DNA of 47,981 bases. Origin: Turneriella parva (GTDB lineage Bacteria; Spirochaetota; Leptospiria; Turneriellales; Turneriellaceae). Below the pieces are notes generated by a model that saw nothing but the letters and a program-made list of their open reading frames with translations, was not told the origin of the DNA and ran no database searches. The translations under genes were made by a program, and so were the position numbers. Below are positions 18,325 through 23,454 of the stretch, piece by piece (the first letter of the stretch is position 1; the number at the start of each line of letters is the position of its first letter). The DNA lies in NCBI GenBank assembly GCA_020719945.1, contig DYPL01000014.1:1-47981 (forward strand), given 5' to 3'.

Positions 18325-19194
18325 CTACCGCTTGCCAAATATCCAGACAAGGCCGGAACCAAGAGAAAACCAGACAATCAAAACAGGTTCTGCAGGCAGC
18401 GCCTCTAAAATAAAAGACATAACAAATCCGGATAAAGCAAGAAGAATAGAAAGCACTACGACAACAAGCATTCCCTGCTGCATGGAACGAACCTGGCCCA
18501 GAATGGAAAGCGGCGGAAGAAGAAGAGCAGCCAGACTAACATACCCTCCCAACGTGCGCGCTCCAAGGGCAATCATAAAACCGGCCCAAAAATAAAACAG
18601 AGTGTTCAGGGTGCGCTCTGGAATTCCGGCCAGGCGCGCCTGAACAGGATCAAAGCCACTCAAAAAAAGCGGGCGATACCAGATGGCAAAAACAAGGAGC
18701 AGCAGCAGAACGACGGGAATATAGTGCGCAAAAACTTCTGGTGGATTGTACAAAATTTCCGAAAAATATATTTTAGAAAGCACAATGTCACTGCCCCCAG
18801 ATAACGCATGGATAAGAGGCAGTGCCGCCATAAATACGACAAACAGAGCAGCCAGAAAAGCTTCCGTATTAATTTTTCTGTTTCGAATTATGTGCACCAG
18901 CGGCAGCAAAAAAAGAGCAATAATTGGCAGCAGATAAATATCGAGATGAAACAGTTCTGCGCGGTTAGTCTCTGCCTCGCTGATTACTTCGTAGGCGTCT
19001 GTGTTATGCACATAAAAATGCAAGGATGCTCCAATGAGCAGTGCCGCCTGGGATGCCCCCGTTGTCACCATGCCAAACAGAGAAGCTCTGCGCAAAATCA
19101 AAAAAAAGCCTGTTAGCGAAAGAGAAGCAAAATATACTAACGACAATACTATTTGCCATGCATACTTTCCAAAATAAAATACAATCTGTTCCAT
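18325..19194 (-). CDS. znuB: Zinc/manganese-type ABC transporter permease
   Basis: A 289-residue integral membrane protein of the ABC-3 (ZnuB/MntB) family with about eight hydrophobic segments. It has typical stretches such as GFFLILRRASLFGMV, FLAALFVVFMAALPL and LGGYVSLAALLLPP. It forms the inner-membrane channel for metal delivered by ZnuA, powered by ZnuC. Its start overlaps the znuC stop by 1 nt (TGATG), indicating coupling. A loop near residues 60-85 is long and acidic and contains His residues. Zinc rather than manganese is favoured by the His-rich neighbours, but this is inferred. Confidence 0.9.
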   Translation of the reverse strand: MEQIVFYFGKYAWQIVLSLVYFASLSLTGFFLILRRASLFGMVTTGASQAALLIGASLHFYVHNTDAYEVISEAETNRAELFHLDIYLLPIIALFLLPLVHIIRNRKINTEAFLAALFVVFMAALPLIHALSGGSDIVLSKIYFSEILYNPPEVFAHYIPVVLLLLLVFAIWYRPLFLSGFDPVQARLAGIPERTLNTLFYFWAGFMIALGARTLGGYVSLAALLLPPLSILGQVRSMQQGMLVVVVLSILLALSGFVMSFILEALPAEPVLIVWFSLGSGLVWIFGKR

Positions 19195-19820
19195 CAGTCA
19201 GTCTCCTGCAGAAGCCCGCCATCGATTTCCAGATGTCTGTCGTAAAAGCCTTTTGGCATAACGCCAAAATGGTCAATGATCAGGAGAGCAGCTTTTGTCT
19301 CCTGTAAAAATTTTCCAATCAAAAAAGAAATCTCTGCACGGCCAGCGCGATCAATAGAAGAAAATGGTTCATCCATGAGCACAAACGAAGGTTTCCCAAT
19401 AAATGCCCGGGCAAGAAGGGCCCGCTGCAGTTGGCCCCCGCTTGCCTCTCTCAATAGAATTTCGCCTGTTCCACTTAAGCCCATTTCTTTCAGCACTTCC
19501 TGCATCTTGGCCAGACAATCTTTATCTTTTCTTTTGGCGTAACCCGGGCAGCCGGCCTCTACAAGAGAGCGAAGCGTCACGGGATATTGCAGATCCTGCT
19601 GCGAGTTTTGCGGAACATAGGCCATTGCCTGCGGCATGATTTGCTTTCCAGAGAGAGGACTTTGCGAACCTAACAGAGTTTTCGCCAGCGTGGATTTTCC
19701 CGCACCGTTTGGTCCCGTGAGTAAAATTTTTTCTCCCGGAAATATGGAAAGACTGACCCGGAAAAGTTTTTTTCCGGGATAGCCTATTTCTGCGTCGATA
19801 AGCTGAATCAGAGGCTGCAA
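19194..19820 (-). CDS. znuC: Zinc-type ABC transporter ATPase
   Basis: A 208-residue ATPase with Walker A GPNGAGKST, signature ASGGQ, Walker B SFVLMDEP and the switch His in LLIIDHFG. The D-loop is SSIDRAG. It is short for the family and lacks the C-terminal extension of E. coli ZnuC. The start appears to be TTG at 19820, 3 nt after the znuA stop, with no ATG in a better place. It pairs with ZnuB, whose start overlaps its stop. Confidence 0.9.
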   Translation of the reverse strand: MQPLIQLIDAEIGYPGKKLFRVSLSIFPGEKILLTGPNGAGKSTLAKTLLGSQSPLSGKQIMPQAMAYVPQNSQQDLQYPVTLRSLVEAGCPGYAKRKDKDCLAKMQEVLKEMGLSGTGEILLREASGGQLQRALLARAFIGKPSFVLMDEPFSSIDRAGRAEISFLIGKFLQETKAALLIIDHFGVMPKGFYDRHLEIDGGLLQETD

Positions 19821-19823
19821 GTG

Positions 19824-20735
19824 TTACTGCTTTGCAAATGCTTCTGCGAGCATGGTTACAACTGTTTGCATCATACTTTTCCAGGTAACGGTATTTTTTC
19901 CCGATCCTGTTTGTATGGGCAGAACGACAAGTCGGGCTCCAGAATCAGCAGCCACTTTTTGGGCGGCACCCAGATTAGACCACGGCGCGGCAAGGATCAC
20001 TTTTATTTTTTGCGCTCTGGCCTGTTCCACGGCGCGGCGAATATCGGCAGGCCCAGGAGCAACGCCCGGCTTTGGTTCAATCTCTCCGGCTATTTCAAAT
20101 CCAAAGCGTTCAGCAAGATAATTAAATTCGCGATGGTACACCATTACTTTTTTTCCTTTGTAGGGAGCAAGCTGCTGCATCCAACGCTGCATCAGAGCAG
20201 CGACAGAAGAACGAAAGGCGGCATAATTTTCTTCGTACACGGACGTACCTGCCGGATCTGCCGCAATCAGGGCGTTCTTGATATTTTTTGCAACGACAAT
20301 CATGCGCATGGGATCGAGCCAGTAATGGGGATTTCCAAGAGCATGCACATCGCCCATGCCACGATTGATTTCTCCGGTTGGCACTTCCAGAAGCTGTATG
20401 TCAGCCGAAGCGTCTACATACCCGGACTGGCCTTTCTGGATTTTTCCATTGCGCGACTGGTTCAGCAGAACAGGAACCCAGCCCGCCTCCATATCCGCTC
20501 CAATCAGGACAAATATATCCGCCTTGGAAACATGCCGAATATAATCGGGTCGGGCGGAAAGGAAATGCAGATCGGCATTGCCTGGAGCAAGAGATTTTAC
20601 AGAGACTCTGTCTCCGCCTATTTCACGGGCAAGGGAACCAAGATCTTCTGTGGTGGCAACCACCTGTACATTTTTCGCAAACGCAGGCGCGGAAAGAATT
20701 CCCGCCATTAACATGGATACAAATATTTTTTTCAT
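19824..20735 (-). CDS. znuA: Periplasmic zinc-binding protein
   Basis: The 303-residue protein has a signal peptide (cleavage about AFA|KN, residue 20). It belongs to the cluster A-I metal-binding proteins. Candidate ligands are His57 (ADLHFLS), His137 (GNPHYWLDP) and His201 (VYHREF), a three-His pattern typical of zinc members. The His-rich loop of E. coli ZnuA is absent; only DVHALG remains before the second ligand. A good Shine-Dalgarno (AAGGAG, 7-nt spacing) precedes the ATG, 11 nt after the outer-membrane-protein gene. It passes zinc to ZnuBC. Confidence 0.9.
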   Translation of the reverse strand: MKKIFVSMLMAGILSAPAFAKNVQVVATTEDLGSLAREIGGDRVSVKSLAPGNADLHFLSARPDYIRHVSKADIFVLIGADMEAGWVPVLLNQSRNGKIQKGQSGYVDASADIQLLEVPTGEINRGMGDVHALGNPHYWLDPMRMIVVAKNIKNALIAADPAGTSVYEENYAAFRSSVAALMQRWMQQLAPYKGKKVMVYHREFNYLAERFGFEIAGEIEPKPGVAPGPADIRRAVEQARAQKIKVILAAPWSNLGAAQKVAADSGARLVVLPIQTGSGKNTVTWKSMMQTVVTMLAEAFAKQ

Positions 20736-20746
20736 GATAAATCTCC

Positions 20747-21946
20747 TTAATATTTATGCGCTGGGTGAAAACCTAAAATAAAATCGGCTTGGACATACGC
20801 GCGGTATTCGTCCTGCCCGGCGTATGGATCATAGCGCTCACCAGATAGGCGGAAATACGAAAACTCGGATGGCCTGAATGTAATCCAGATCGATTCCTCG
20901 TAATCTGCCATCCCCGATTCTGCATCGTCCATAAAAAAATCAAAACGGGCACCCGTACTCCAGTCAGAAAGAAACTTCCATTCTATAAAAGAGTAAAGTC
21001 CCTGGATACCCACAGATTGTTTGCCGGTTTCCTCTGTATACTGCTCGTCACGATACCAGTACTCGGTAGTCCACTCGACATACGTTTTACGGCCCGTCTC
21101 AAATTTATAGGTAATGTCTGCGCCGGCCATGTTCCAGTAATTGCTCACGTCCTCATTGTAGGGAAACCGCAAATAGGTTCCGCCAAACTGGATCCCCTGC
21201 CGCTGCCCCAGAGAAATAAAATTCTTGAGGCGAGCCGTATACAATGGTTGCGGCTTGCGAACGCCGGAGCTGTGCGAATGCCCCCAGGTTTGTCCGTTAA
21301 AGGCACCTAACTTTATTTCCTGGTAAAAGGGCATAAAGGGAACCAGCCAGCCAACCTCTCCGCCCGTATCAAAAACACCCTCTTTGTCAATCAAGCGTTC
21401 GTGGACTAAAGGCGCAACGGGAAAAGCCCAGTCGTGGCGGTGGAACGTGTTGAGCCTGCCCATGTCCAGAAAAAAGCGCCCCACTTTGGCATTGAGGCCA
21501 CCGGGCAAAACGGGAAAATCAAAATACAGCTCGTGCAGATCCGCATACCACTGCCCGGCCTCATTGTGCATGGCAATCAAAAGCGTTCCCTGCGACAAAT
21601 GATCCACGTAACCAGAATAGCCAAATTCTACCTCCCGAACCAGAAACTGATTGTCTTCTGTGGTTTTTTCCGTGTTGGGACCGGCATAGATGCCGAGCAT
21701 GTCGGCAGCCACAATCACATTGGGATTCGAAGCGCGGTCAATCACGTTTCCACCCGTGGAGCCATGGCCCTGCGAAGCCTCTACTTCAGAAAAATCTATG
21801 TCGCTGCTTTCCGTTTCCTGTGCAGAGATGGGGGATGCTATAATTCCCGTTAGAAGGCTTACAGCAATAAAACTTTTCAGAAAGTTTTTTGGCTGGAACG
21901 GCTTCCGTTCTATTGTCCTTGTTTGTCTTTTTGTATATGTCGTCAT
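20747..21946 (-). CDS. Outer-membrane beta-barrel protein of the zinc locus
   Basis: The 399-residue protein has a long N-terminal signal region (hydrophobic about 28-42, cleavage near ISAQ). The rest alternates amphipathic aromatic-rich strands as in porin-like barrels and ends in an aromatic residue (HPAHKY). Histidines cluster in TFHRHDWAFP, WGHSHSSG and the C-terminus. It has no TonB box or plug domain. Similar barrels sit next to znu genes in other bacteria and are thought to move zinc across the outer membrane; this is an analogy, not proof. The start has a Shine-Dalgarno (GGAG, 8-nt spacing). It lies 11 nt upstream of znuA. Confidence 0.75.
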   Translation of the reverse strand: MTTYTKRQTRTIERKPFQPKNFLKSFIAVSLLTGIIASPISAQETESSDIDFSEVEASQGHGSTGGNVIDRASNPNVIVAADMLGIYAGPNTEKTTEDNQFLVREVEFGYSGYVDHLSQGTLLIAMHNEAGQWYADLHELYFDFPVLPGGLNAKVGRFFLDMGRLNTFHRHDWAFPVAPLVHERLIDKEGVFDTGGEVGWLVPFMPFYQEIKLGAFNGQTWGHSHSSGVRKPQPLYTARLKNFISLGQRQGIQFGGTYLRFPYNEDVSNYWNMAGADITYKFETGRKTYVEWTTEYWYRDEQYTEETGKQSVGIQGLYSFIEWKFLSDWSTGARFDFFMDDAESGMADYEESIWITFRPSEFSYFRLSGERYDPYAGQDEYRAYVQADFILGFHPAHKY

Positions 21947-22074
21947 TATTTAACTCCATTGTATATTTGCCGCAATAGTTAGCGGCCATTTGTTCTATAA
22001 CTGTTTCCCTTGCGGGAGAGCATGGCTCTCAAGTCTCCGCGCGAAAAAATTTCCGTCGCAACTTCGCCAACCCG

Positions 22075-22105
22075 CCCCACCCTGCGCGGCACGCGCAGGG
22101 TGGGG
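22075..22105. other. Perfect 14-bp GC-rich hairpin between two zinc-locus genes
   Basis: Arms CCCCACCCTGCGCG and CGCGCAGGGTGGGG flank the 3-nt loop GCA. The hairpin starts 6 bp after the lipoprotein stop and precedes the barrel gene. No U-run follows on the minus strand, so it is not a classical terminator. It could stabilise the lipoprotein mRNA 3' end or set the expression ratio within the operon. Confidence 0.7.
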
Positions 22106-22111
22106 GAAAAA

Positions 22112-22867
22112 TCAATGCTCGTAACGCGGTGCTTTAACATGCAGCGTTCCCGTTACAGCAGAAGTGCCCGACGTAGCCTTGTAGTGAAAATGGGTACCGG
22201 ATACGCCAGCTAACAACAGCTTGCTTTGATCATCGTTAAAGGTAGAAGATGTATTGACCGCAAAACCGGCCAGCCAGTCCGCAGCAACGGAAGGATCACC
22301 CAATGGATACAGCGCTGCATCGGTGGTGCACTTGTCGCCTCTCCACAAAATCAAATGGGAATTGTCAGAGTCGTGCGTGTGTATGTCAAAACACCAGTCG
22401 GTAATTCCACTCATCACAATATTGTCATTGGCAGAATCGTAGCCCGTTGTACCGTCACCAAACGTCGCTGTTTTGGTGGTTCCATTGGCGTTGCTCATTT
22501 TGGAAACATTGTAATTTTGGGATTTGCCTGGATAGCTGATATCCATGGAAGCCGTAGCGGCGCCATTGATTTCGAGCACAATTCCATCGCCAGCATTTGC
22601 GTCGCTCACCCTCTCGTTAGGATTGTTAGAGCTGATGAGAATGCTCCCGCCATTTAAGGCCAGATCCTCCGCCCAAACGTGAACTTCGGCACTGTCTTCG
22701 CATTCGCCAAATTTATGCCATGCACCATCCGAGGTTATGGTAACATACTGGTCTCCCTCGCAACCATGGTGGTACTCGTCTTTCGGAACATCTGCATTGC
22801 ATGCGGTAAAAAAAAGCACATACAAAAAAACTCCGAAGGTGACATTTATTTTCGTAAAATAGTTCAT
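22112..22867 (-). CDS. Putative metal-binding lipoprotein of the zinc locus
   Basis: The start at 22867 is fixed by a strong Shine-Dalgarno (GGAGG, 5-nt spacing); the frame is open 8 codons further upstream. The 251-residue product has a signal peptide with lipobox FFTAC. The mature protein is rich in Gly, Ser, Thr and Asn and looks all-beta. Candidate metal sites are DEYHHGCEG near the N-terminus, FDIHTHDSDNSH in the middle and GTHFHYK near the C-terminus, plus several Cys that could form disulfides. No known family is recognised. Position and His/Cys content suggest a surface zinc-binding partner of the barrel protein. Confidence 0.72.
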   Translation of the reverse strand: MNYFTKINVTFGVFLYVLFFTACNADVPKDEYHHGCEGDQYVTITSDGAWHKFGECEDSAEVHVWAEDLALNGGSILISSNNPNERVSDANAGDGIVLEINGAATASMDISYPGKSQNYNVSKMSNANGTTKTATFGDGTTGYDSANDNIVMSGITDWCFDIHTHDSDNSHLILWRGDKCTTDAALYPLGDPSVAADWLAGFAVNTSSTFNDDQSKLLLAGVSGTHFHYKATSGTSAVTGTLHVKAPRYEH

Positions 22868-22880
22868 ACGATCCTCCAAA

Positions 22881-23109
22881 ATATAATCCAACCTAAGCTT
22901 ATAGAAATCCCGATGGCGTCGGAGCCAAACATGCAGTGGCTTCCCTCAGGCAAATCCACTGTACATATCTTGCTTGGGGATCTCTGCTCCCGTGAACCCC
23001 GCAAAACAACAAGGTTCACTTTGCGATGCTGCGAACACACATTCGCAACTGCGCATGCCAACGACGTGCCCCGCAAAAATGCTAAGCAAACGTCTAAGGC
23101 GTTTTTGTT
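22881..23109 (-). promoter_or_regulatory. Structured leader region of the zinc lipoprotein
   Basis: This 229-bp gap upstream of the lipoprotein gene contains three inverted repeats: TGCGAA/TTCGCA (23030-23035 and 23042-23047), GTGAACC/GGTTCAC (22992-22998 and 23013-23019) and CAGTGG/CCACTG (22934-22939 and 22956-22961). The first looks like an operator. The others could fold in the mRNA. A Zur site or a metal-responsive leader is possible, but no known consensus was matched. Confidence 0.35.
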
Positions 23110-23418
23110 TTAGATAGTTATTGGAGGAGCGCGAGCGCTGTTAGTAGAATATTTTCTGGAAAAAAGAATATTGTAAGGAGAGAATGGCTGCGCATCAGAC
23201 AAGGCAGCGGTGCTTAATGCGGTAAAGACGATCTGCAGCAGAGGTGTTTCTGATAGTAAGCGGTGAAGGGTATCGCAGGAGTTTGTGGAGACTGCCGCCG
23301 CATGGGGGGCTTCGTGAACATGTTCCTTCGCATGGGAGGGCACATGATAATGCCATGCAGAAAGCGTGCTGAATGTTAAAAACAGAGCTGTCTGAAAAAT
23401 GGCAATACTGCGGAACAT
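23110..23418 (-). CDS. Small His-rich secreted protein of the zinc locus
   Basis: The start at 23418 (Met 13 of the open frame) was chosen because a near-consensus promoter lies immediately upstream. The 102-residue product begins with a hydrophobic signal or anchor (MFRSIAIFQTALFLTF). A His cluster follows, WHYHVPSHAKEHVHEAPH, then a single Cys and a second hydrophobic stretch (about 55-75). It resembles small His-rich proteins encoded beside metal transporters. A role in periplasmic zinc binding or sensing is inferred. The remaining C-terminus has no recognised features. Confidence 0.6.
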   Translation of the reverse strand: MFRSIAIFQTALFLTFSTLSAWHYHVPSHAKEHVHEAPHAAAVSTNSCDTLHRLLSETPLLQIVFTALSTAALSDAQPFSPYNILFSRKYSTNSARAPPITI

Positions 23419-23425
23419 TGCCCGA

Positions 23426-23454
23426 ATAGTAATAAAGAAGAGACGCGCTGTCAA
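23426..23454 (-). promoter_or_regulatory. Promoter of the His-rich gene and possibly the zinc locus
   Basis: On the minus strand TTGACA (23454-23449), a 17-nt spacer and TACTAT (23431-23426) form the best sigma-70 match in the window. The -10 ends 7 nt before ATG 23418, with no Shine-Dalgarno between. The transcript is predicted to be leaderless or nearly so. Confidence 0.6.

Follow-up and report, generated by a model that had tools for sequence, protein, structure and literature searches.

The locus described here raises the question of how zinc could reach a ZnuABC importer from outside the cell without a TonB-dependent receptor. It occupies positions 18325 to 23454 of the window, with its genes on the minus strand. 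By the window we mean the whole 47,981-nucleotide stretch that was analyzed (contig DYPL01000014.1 of Turneriella parva assembly GCA_020719945.1), one of the 146 contigs (C132) of a genome of 2.42 Mb. Zinc is largely described as crossing the outer membrane through TonB-dependent receptors in shortage and by passive or facilitated diffusion at sufficiency (PMC10393844; PubMed Central papers are cited by identifier, and the statements taken from them refer to excerpts of each source). An earlier, sequence-only reading of the window had claimed six genes on one strand, with three envelope proteins ahead of znuA, znuC and znuB, and all six open reading frames (ORFs) were found: first that of the small protein, then those of the lipoprotein, the barrel, ZnuA, ZnuC and ZnuB. 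With a probability that we put at about 0.6, the locus encodes a TonB-independent zinc route over both membranes, in which a zinc-preferring porin and its helpers would feed ZnuA. The features that this reading draws on are the following.

23110 to 23418, minus strand: small His-rich protein of 102 amino acids (13-sequence alignment A2, own-genome profile match)
22112 to 22867, minus strand: lipoprotein of 251 amino acids with lipobox Cys23 (27-member alignment A4)
22328 to 22393, minus strand: proposed metal motif of the lipoprotein, C159-x-[DE]-x-H163...H171...C180 (column check, 27 members)
20747 to 21946, minus strand: predicted 16-stranded outer-membrane porin with conserved histidines (AF2 model, fold search)
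21368 to 21475, minus strand: barrel loop between strands beta5 and beta6, residues 158 to 193, with HRHDW and H182 (strand limits of the AF2 model)
19824 to 20735, minus strand: ZnuA-type solute-binding protein (PF01297, 202 bits)
19194 to 19820, minus strand: ZnuC-type ATPase (PF00005)
18325 to 19194, minus strand: ZnuB-type permease (PF00950)

The occurrence of the barrel and of ZnuA was compared across genomes. In a sample of 61 genomes of relatives the barrel was present in 33, every one of them within the class (Leptospiria), and a search of 48 genomes of this class detected the barrel in 33 and a ZnuA-family gene in 35. Both genes were present in 32 of these genomes, the barrel only in one, ZnuA only in three, and neither in 12 (Fisher p 8e-8, uncorrected for kinship). 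A ZnuA gene lies within 1.5 kb of 31 of the 34 class barrels, always downstream and on the same strand. As to class loci without an adjacent ZnuA gene, the barrel is cut by a contig end in G012, and in G004 the barrel tail sits on the start of the contig that bears ZnuA. In a phylum set, which was independent of the class search, 46 of 296 genomes matched the barrel, including 13 outside the class. Of the 16 outside-class barrel loci, 14 have a downstream ZnuA gene, while in L117 this gene is divergent and in L123 it is lost to a contig end. For these counts split barrel fragments were merged, while a weak fragment (G002:C32) and a ZnuA fragment below the cut-off (G027:C48) were dropped. Beyond the spirochaetes, the pair was found in a Bdellovibrionaceae metagenome-assembled genome (MAG; L069), in Sulfurovum mangrovi (L115) and in Vibrio campbellii (L114), so that the co-location spans four phyla. 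The sequence-only reading was to be given up if these genes did not co-occur with znuABC in related genomes, and the adjacency of barrel and ZnuA at 31/34 class loci and 14/16 loci outside it speaks in its favor. The locus is also present in a congener, G001, where its proteins are 71–91% identical. The locus is more than a chance arrangement, because relatives keep the same neighbors, and the observation is stronger than at the first reading, because the gene set recurs in them. The pairing of porin and ZnuA is well supported.

The structure of the barrel was predicted, as the earlier reading had proposed, and a porin-like model with 16 strands was obtained (pLDDT 74.2, pTM 0.72). In the fold search the closest solved structures were those of the Pseudomonas aeruginosa phosphate and polyphosphate porins OprP (2o4v_A; Z 27.4, root-mean-square deviation 3.0, 301 residues aligned) and OprO (Z 27.2), followed by OprB (Z 24.9), each at about 10% identity, and many porins matched at Z 22–24; hence, the model has the 16-stranded fold of the OprP/OprO type (VIA search, Z about 27). 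PDB searches gave no sequence match with the single protein and no relevant one with a 25-row profile, and sequence homology to the OprP family was not found in either. Neither the window barrel nor the small protein had a Pfam match over the cut-off; BBP2 (PF07642) matched the window barrel weakly (E 0.016) and was detected in 7 of 25 barrels, the best at E 3.5e-6. The absence of a plug, which had been read from the sequence, was borne out, as no Plug match was detected in the window barrel or its 24 aligned relatives at E up to 0.5, and none of the 25 barrels scanned has the N-terminal plug of a TonB-dependent receptor.

The conserved histidines of the barrel were then considered in the light of this fold. 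Porins with 16 strands have a loop, L3, that connects strands 5 and 6, folds into the pore and lines its constriction. By strand order in the predicted model, we take residues 158 to 193 of the barrel to be the counterpart of this loop. They include H169, H171, D172 and H182, and N166, H169, H171 and P179 are identical in 19/19 aligned barrels, among them those of Vibrio, Sulfurovum, the Bdellovibrionaceae MAG and one relative from a copper-gene neighborhood (see below). Of the 53 family barrels, 51 have the NxxHxH motif; the exceptions are L024, which has HxH without the asparagine, and L042, which is without the motif and by alignment has a serine where the second histidine would be. The Vibrio, Sulfurovum and copper-side barrels have tyrosine at 182 and histidine at 189, where others have histidine and glutamate. 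In alignment A6, 9 of the 11 window barrel histidines are conserved at 95% or above versus 48 of 399 positions overall (hypergeometric 1.2e-7), and in the wider alignment A1 the corresponding numbers are 6 of 11 and 50 of 399 (8e-4), both tests ignoring shared ancestry. The HxH and the third histidine of the L3 loop would form a zinc-preferring eyelet, and the barrel may thus be selective for zinc.

These results also bear on the most serious rival explanation, which is that a general porin is merely co-transcribed with the znu genes, that the two small proteins only buffer zinc in the periplasm, and that zinc enters mainly via other porins or TonB receptors. The ordinary porin fold with its many matches at Z 22–24, the TonB-type plug domains encoded elsewhere in the genome, and the fact that the lipoprotein and the small protein are not universal partners are all consistent with this explanation. 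On the other hand, the barrel gene stays next to ZnuA in four phyla, and there is no evident reason for a general porin to keep NxxHxH at the constriction-loop position in 51 of 53 barrels. We consider this explanation unlikely.

The importer genes were compared with protein families. The matches over Pfam cut-offs were ZnuA (PF01297, E 1.2e-59), the ATPase domain (PF00005, ABC_tran, 1.9e-22) and the ABC-3 permease domain (PF00950, 1.7e-11), and their adjacent encoding agrees with a ZnuABC-type importer of cluster A-I. Among NCBIfam models the window ZnuA scored 133.9 bits with AztC (cut-off 350), 115.9 with MntC and 79.2 with ZnuA, all below their cut-offs, and the best model for the window ZnuC was AztA, with 121 bits, below its cut-off of 220. 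By this profile similarity, zinc is the putative substrate. It could be argued that a different divalent metal is handled by these proteins, such as manganese, iron, nickel or cobalt, since cluster A-I binding proteins have Zn, Mn or Fe as substrates (PMC7731109) and the MntC-type model reaches 116 bits with the window ZnuA. However, the best NCBIfam models for both binding protein and ATPase are of the zinc AztABC type, the ligands are rich in histidine, and Fur-family genes in some loci and Zur-like palindromes in Vibrio point the same way, although none of these proves zinc; we consider another metal quite improbable.

The lipoprotein had been noted as belonging to no recognized family, and indeed the window protein matched neither Pfam nor NCBIfam; by sequence it is a new family, with 27 aligned members. 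C23, C159, H163, H171 and C180 are invariant in the 27 lipoproteins and C56 is kept in 26 of them (window numbering; A4 numbering is plus one), and two disulphides or a Cys/His site would both be possible for these residues. The Bdellovibrionaceae lipoprotein (L069) keeps both motif histidines and has lost the two framing cysteines. The AF2 model from 15 sequences had a pLDDT of 40.8 and no usable fold. A single-sequence search was misleading, detecting relatives in 2 of 61 genomes, while profiles from neighboring genes detected many more. The neighborhood search proposed by the sequence-only reading showed a lipoprotein relative beside 26 of the 34 class barrels, and 28 of 33 strong profile matches lay less than 2 kb from a barrel; the 33 are profile rows with E < 1e-12 after two G035 fragments were merged, and matches with E from 1e-6 to 1e-3, which mostly covered the signal region only, were dropped before counting. 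In three genomes the lipoprotein gene is divergent instead of co-directional. No lipoprotein relatives were found in viral contigs, and a plasmid search with the Bdellovibrionaceae lipoprotein gave no match. Scanned against Pfam and NCBIfam at E up to 0.5, the 27 lipoproteins gave no match to AztD, ZinT or ZrgA, the coverage of each by these libraries being unchecked. The leptospiral LIC20153 lipoprotein family was considered and rejected, as it matched two members at the N-terminus only (residues 11–64 and 12–49; 11.5 and 13.5 bits versus a cut-off of 120); one further and better LIC20153 match in the family scan (E 4.6e-4) was not assigned to a member.

The small protein has a hydrophobic N-terminus, the stretch WHYHVPSHAKEHVHEAPH, one cysteine and a C-terminal ARAPP, and the profile of its family matched its own genome at 23116–23418 (E 6.4e-27). 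The family is divergent, sharing a hydrophobic start, a His cluster, a cysteine and a C-terminal PP, mostly APP; C48, P98 and P99 are invariant in alignment A2. The His..Cys..PP pattern is present upstream of 15/34 class barrels and 15/19 other barrels versus 4/2043 other ORFs of up to 180 amino acids in the same loci. The histidines noted in the earlier reading are present in all three envelope proteins: HTH at 163–165 and HFH at 226–228 in the lipoprotein, H23, H25, H29, H33, H35 and H39 in the small protein, and 11 histidines in the barrel. DUF2946 proteins occur near metal-resistance genes. Weak DUF2946 matches were detected in 3 of the 13 small proteins (best E 0.0062), the window member being without one, and an origin of the upstream genes in zinc or heavy-metal efflux or resistance, with a DUF2946-like small protein, is very improbable, given that the constant partner is an importer and no efflux pump was noticed among the recurring neighbors.

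Together, these observations can be assembled into a zinc route. Zn2+ would diffuse through the eyelet of the porin, drawn by its tight binding to ZnuA, and two helpers would gather Zn2+ close to the mouth of the pore or pass it to ZnuA: the lipoprotein, by its H...H site framed by cysteines, and the small protein with its His and Cys residues, which is probably membrane-tethered. ZnuB and ZnuC would then import the zinc. A route from the cell surface to the importer had been suggested in the sequence-only reading; the part of it that stands is the conserved neighborhood, with the lipoprotein at 26/34 class loci and the small protein at 15/34 class and 15/19 other loci, while zinc binding, transport, the location of the lipoprotein and a response to zinc are kept here in conditional form.

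The regulation of the locus was considered from its regulators and possible operators. The genome encodes two Fur-family genes, both away from the locus, while such genes are present within the related loci L030, L049, L050, L053, L069 and L125. In V. campbellii two Zur-like palindromes (7769 and 7803) lie upstream, near the start of the barrel gene, and a further, overlapping pair of matches lies near 1279–1300, versus 0.12 expected. Isolated palindromes were detected in L033, as an exact TTGATAAT-GC-ATTATCAA (28 of 200 shuffles also had one match or more with the mismatches allowed in the search), and in L028; no Zur box common to the loci was found. Leptospira interrogans is described as having four Fur-like regulators, one resembling Zur in its metal sites (PMC8638967), V. 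cholerae is reported to have a Zur-regulated ABC transporter, vca1098–vca1101 (PMC8248653), and a review lists an OprD porin among Zur-linked genes (PMC6103462). The locus genes may answer to zinc starvation.

Several observations weigh against the proposed zinc route. No Zur-type palindrome was found in the window, and in V. campbellii an overlapping pair of Zur-like matches also occurs elsewhere, near 1279–1300. H127, H138 and GHxH are missing from the barrels of Vibrio and Sulfurovum, in which positions 182 and 189 are Y and H. The lipoprotein is absent at 8/34 class barrel loci and its profile matched at 0/16 outside-class spirochaete loci, and by the strict pattern the small protein is missing at 19/34 class loci, some of which have little upstream sequence. 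The genome itself encodes a second ZnuA-family transporter (L076:1682-4062, C47) without an adjoining barrel, lipoprotein or small protein, as well as seven plug-domain matches, six of them over the cut-off, which leave a TonB route possible. Finally, G019 is a true exception to the pairing, with the barrel apart from ZnuA; it is the only class genome seen with small protein, lipoprotein and barrel (L043, L081) on another contig than znuACB.

The locus was also compared with known systems. OprP and OprO genes are linked to ABC importer genes for their substrates. The window barrel shares with them the 16-stranded single-chain porin fold (Z 27) and, if its proposed selectivity holds, the arrangement in which a selective porin and an ABC importer for its substrate are encoded side by side. 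It differs in its low identity of about 10% and in the L3 region, which has conserved histidines here and an arginine ladder in OprP (PDB title). The barrels of TonB-dependent receptors have 22 strands, in contrast to the 16 strands without a plug match in the window barrel. The TonB-dependent zinc receptors ZnuD, PA1922 and CntO/ZrmA resemble it in the proposed job, which is to carry zinc over the outer membrane in shortage, and for Pseudomonas, TonB is described as driving the active uptake of zinc (PMC10393844). The AztABCD system with its zinc chaperone AztD is similar in that AztC and AztA are the best NCBIfam models for the window ZnuA and ZnuC and that an extra periplasmic or surface zinc protein is encoded beside the importer; it differs in that the window scores are all below the Azt cut-offs and the window lipoprotein matches no family. 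The mycobacterial envelope, to which MspD belongs, is unrelated to that of the window's host. MspD of Mycobacterium smegmatis is comparable as a porin tied to zinc supply without TonB, but it is a mycobacterial Msp porin highly similar to MspA (PMC13098993).

Nearest in spirit is the ZepA exoprotein of Anabaena, an extracytoplasmic zinc protein with a His site, sometimes encoded near znuA and a Fur-family gene, which has a PEP-CTERM end and an H-X2-9-H-F/Y-H motif and is reported from Cyanobacteria, Proteobacteria, Nitrospirota and the PVC group (PMC10957091). Its family, anchoring and range are different, as the window lipoprotein ends in ...HVKAPRYEH without a hydrophobic tail and has the motif C-x-D-x-H, and the text of the ZepA paper contains no mention of spirochaetes, Bdellovibrio or a porin (PMC10957091). 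No description of a porin encoded beside znuA was found in the open-licence PMC papers searched.

The gene limits of the earlier reading held as far as the ORFs are concerned, while the starts were corrected to the likelier ATG codons at 23418 (small protein) and 22867 (lipoprotein), because the family profile matches begin there. The gaps along the locus are 242, 165, 11, 3 and 0 bp in gene order. Barrel, znuA, znuC and znuB look like one transcription unit because their gaps are only 11, 3 and 0 bp, while a single transcript is less certain for the other two genes because of the 242- and 165-bp gaps, the second with a strong hairpin; the small-protein and lipoprotein genes may be on transcripts of their own. 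Antisense ORFs within the six genes were taken as chance. Two further elements were noted.

23426 to 23454, minus strand: promoter-like site TTGACA-17-TACTAT ahead of the small-protein gene (10/12 consensus matches)
22075 to 22105, minus strand: GC-rich hairpin directly 3′ of the lipoprotein stop codon (RNA fold −39.5 kcal/mol, z −3.13)

The promoter-like site is weak because the region holds 13 such sites versus 7.1 in shuffles. The hairpin has a 9-bp perfect inverted repeat; it is without a T-run directly behind it and was not among the terminator-like sites found, and it may serve in attenuation or as an mRNA end.

Some of the related loci have features of their own. The locus of Sulfurovum mangrovi (L115:3842-7148, NZ_CP087125.1) encodes a small His/Cys protein, the barrel, a zinc-binding protein and a permease on a 395-kb replicon, the barrel and small protein being annotated as hypothetical only. 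In V. campbellii the barrel (L114:7836-8978), with a His-rich insert (HDHGHADEHGHDHSHG), is encoded immediately before ZnuA and a permease. In one relative (L030:2695-4821) the locus is preceded by genes of a GTPase that by eye is CobW-like, of a lipoprotein with a His-rich coiled coil and of a Fur-family protein. This group looks like a zinc-starvation island, and a similar His-rich coiled-coil protein (L051:5189-5737) overlaps a barrel start. The MAG filed as Caldithrix sp. (L056, DYKF01000070.1) has a locus about 90% identical to the leptospira-class locus of the window, and for this reason its label looks wrong or its bin mixed.

Five strong lipoprotein matches lie away from the barrels counted above: L074 and L075 lie on short contigs and give no information, while the other three adjoin SCO1/SenC.

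L071:6381-7181, L072:6751-7437, L073:6177-6983: copper-side lipoprotein relatives, beside SCO1/SenC and PCuAC copper genes
L071:3025-4557, L073:7596-9089: fusion of a PCuAC copper-chaperone domain and a Met-rich C-terminal part (weak barrel-family match, PF13557)

The lipoproteins of L071 and L073 have lost both conserved histidines, while that of L072 keeps both, slightly shifted, and is adjoined by a His-type barrel relative; in this genome a PCuAC gene is located just beyond SCO1. Methionine makes up 3.2–4.0% of the mature lipoprotein in the three copper-side members versus 0–1.44% in the 27 znu-side members, and 8.0% of the C-terminal part of the fusion versus 0.9–3.4% of znu-side barrels. 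The fusions could possibly join a periplasmic chaperone to an outer-membrane barrel. The pairing of the lipoprotein with copper genes is rare, since 20 PCuAC loci compared by profile had neither a lipoprotein nor a barrel relative. These sequences (three on the copper side) give hints that the lipoprotein ligands follow the metal. A broader and more tentative proposal, which may well not hold in full, is that the barrel represents a widespread family of porins that has not yet been described and that selects zinc by three His ligands in the constriction loop, HxH together with H182 or H189. In spirochaetes of the class it would act with a new family of metal-ferrying lipoproteins whose ligands follow the metal, with histidine by ZnuABC and methionine-rich sequences by SCO1/PCuAC, as parts of a modular TonB-independent metal route over the outer membrane.

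If the zinc route is true, zinc would have a dedicated TonB-free way through a porin that has a conserved His site and whose gene immediately precedes that of ZnuA in four phyla. A likely role would then be at hand for two unnamed protein families, and the lipoproteins beside copper genes would offer a natural test of how a protein family changes its metal.

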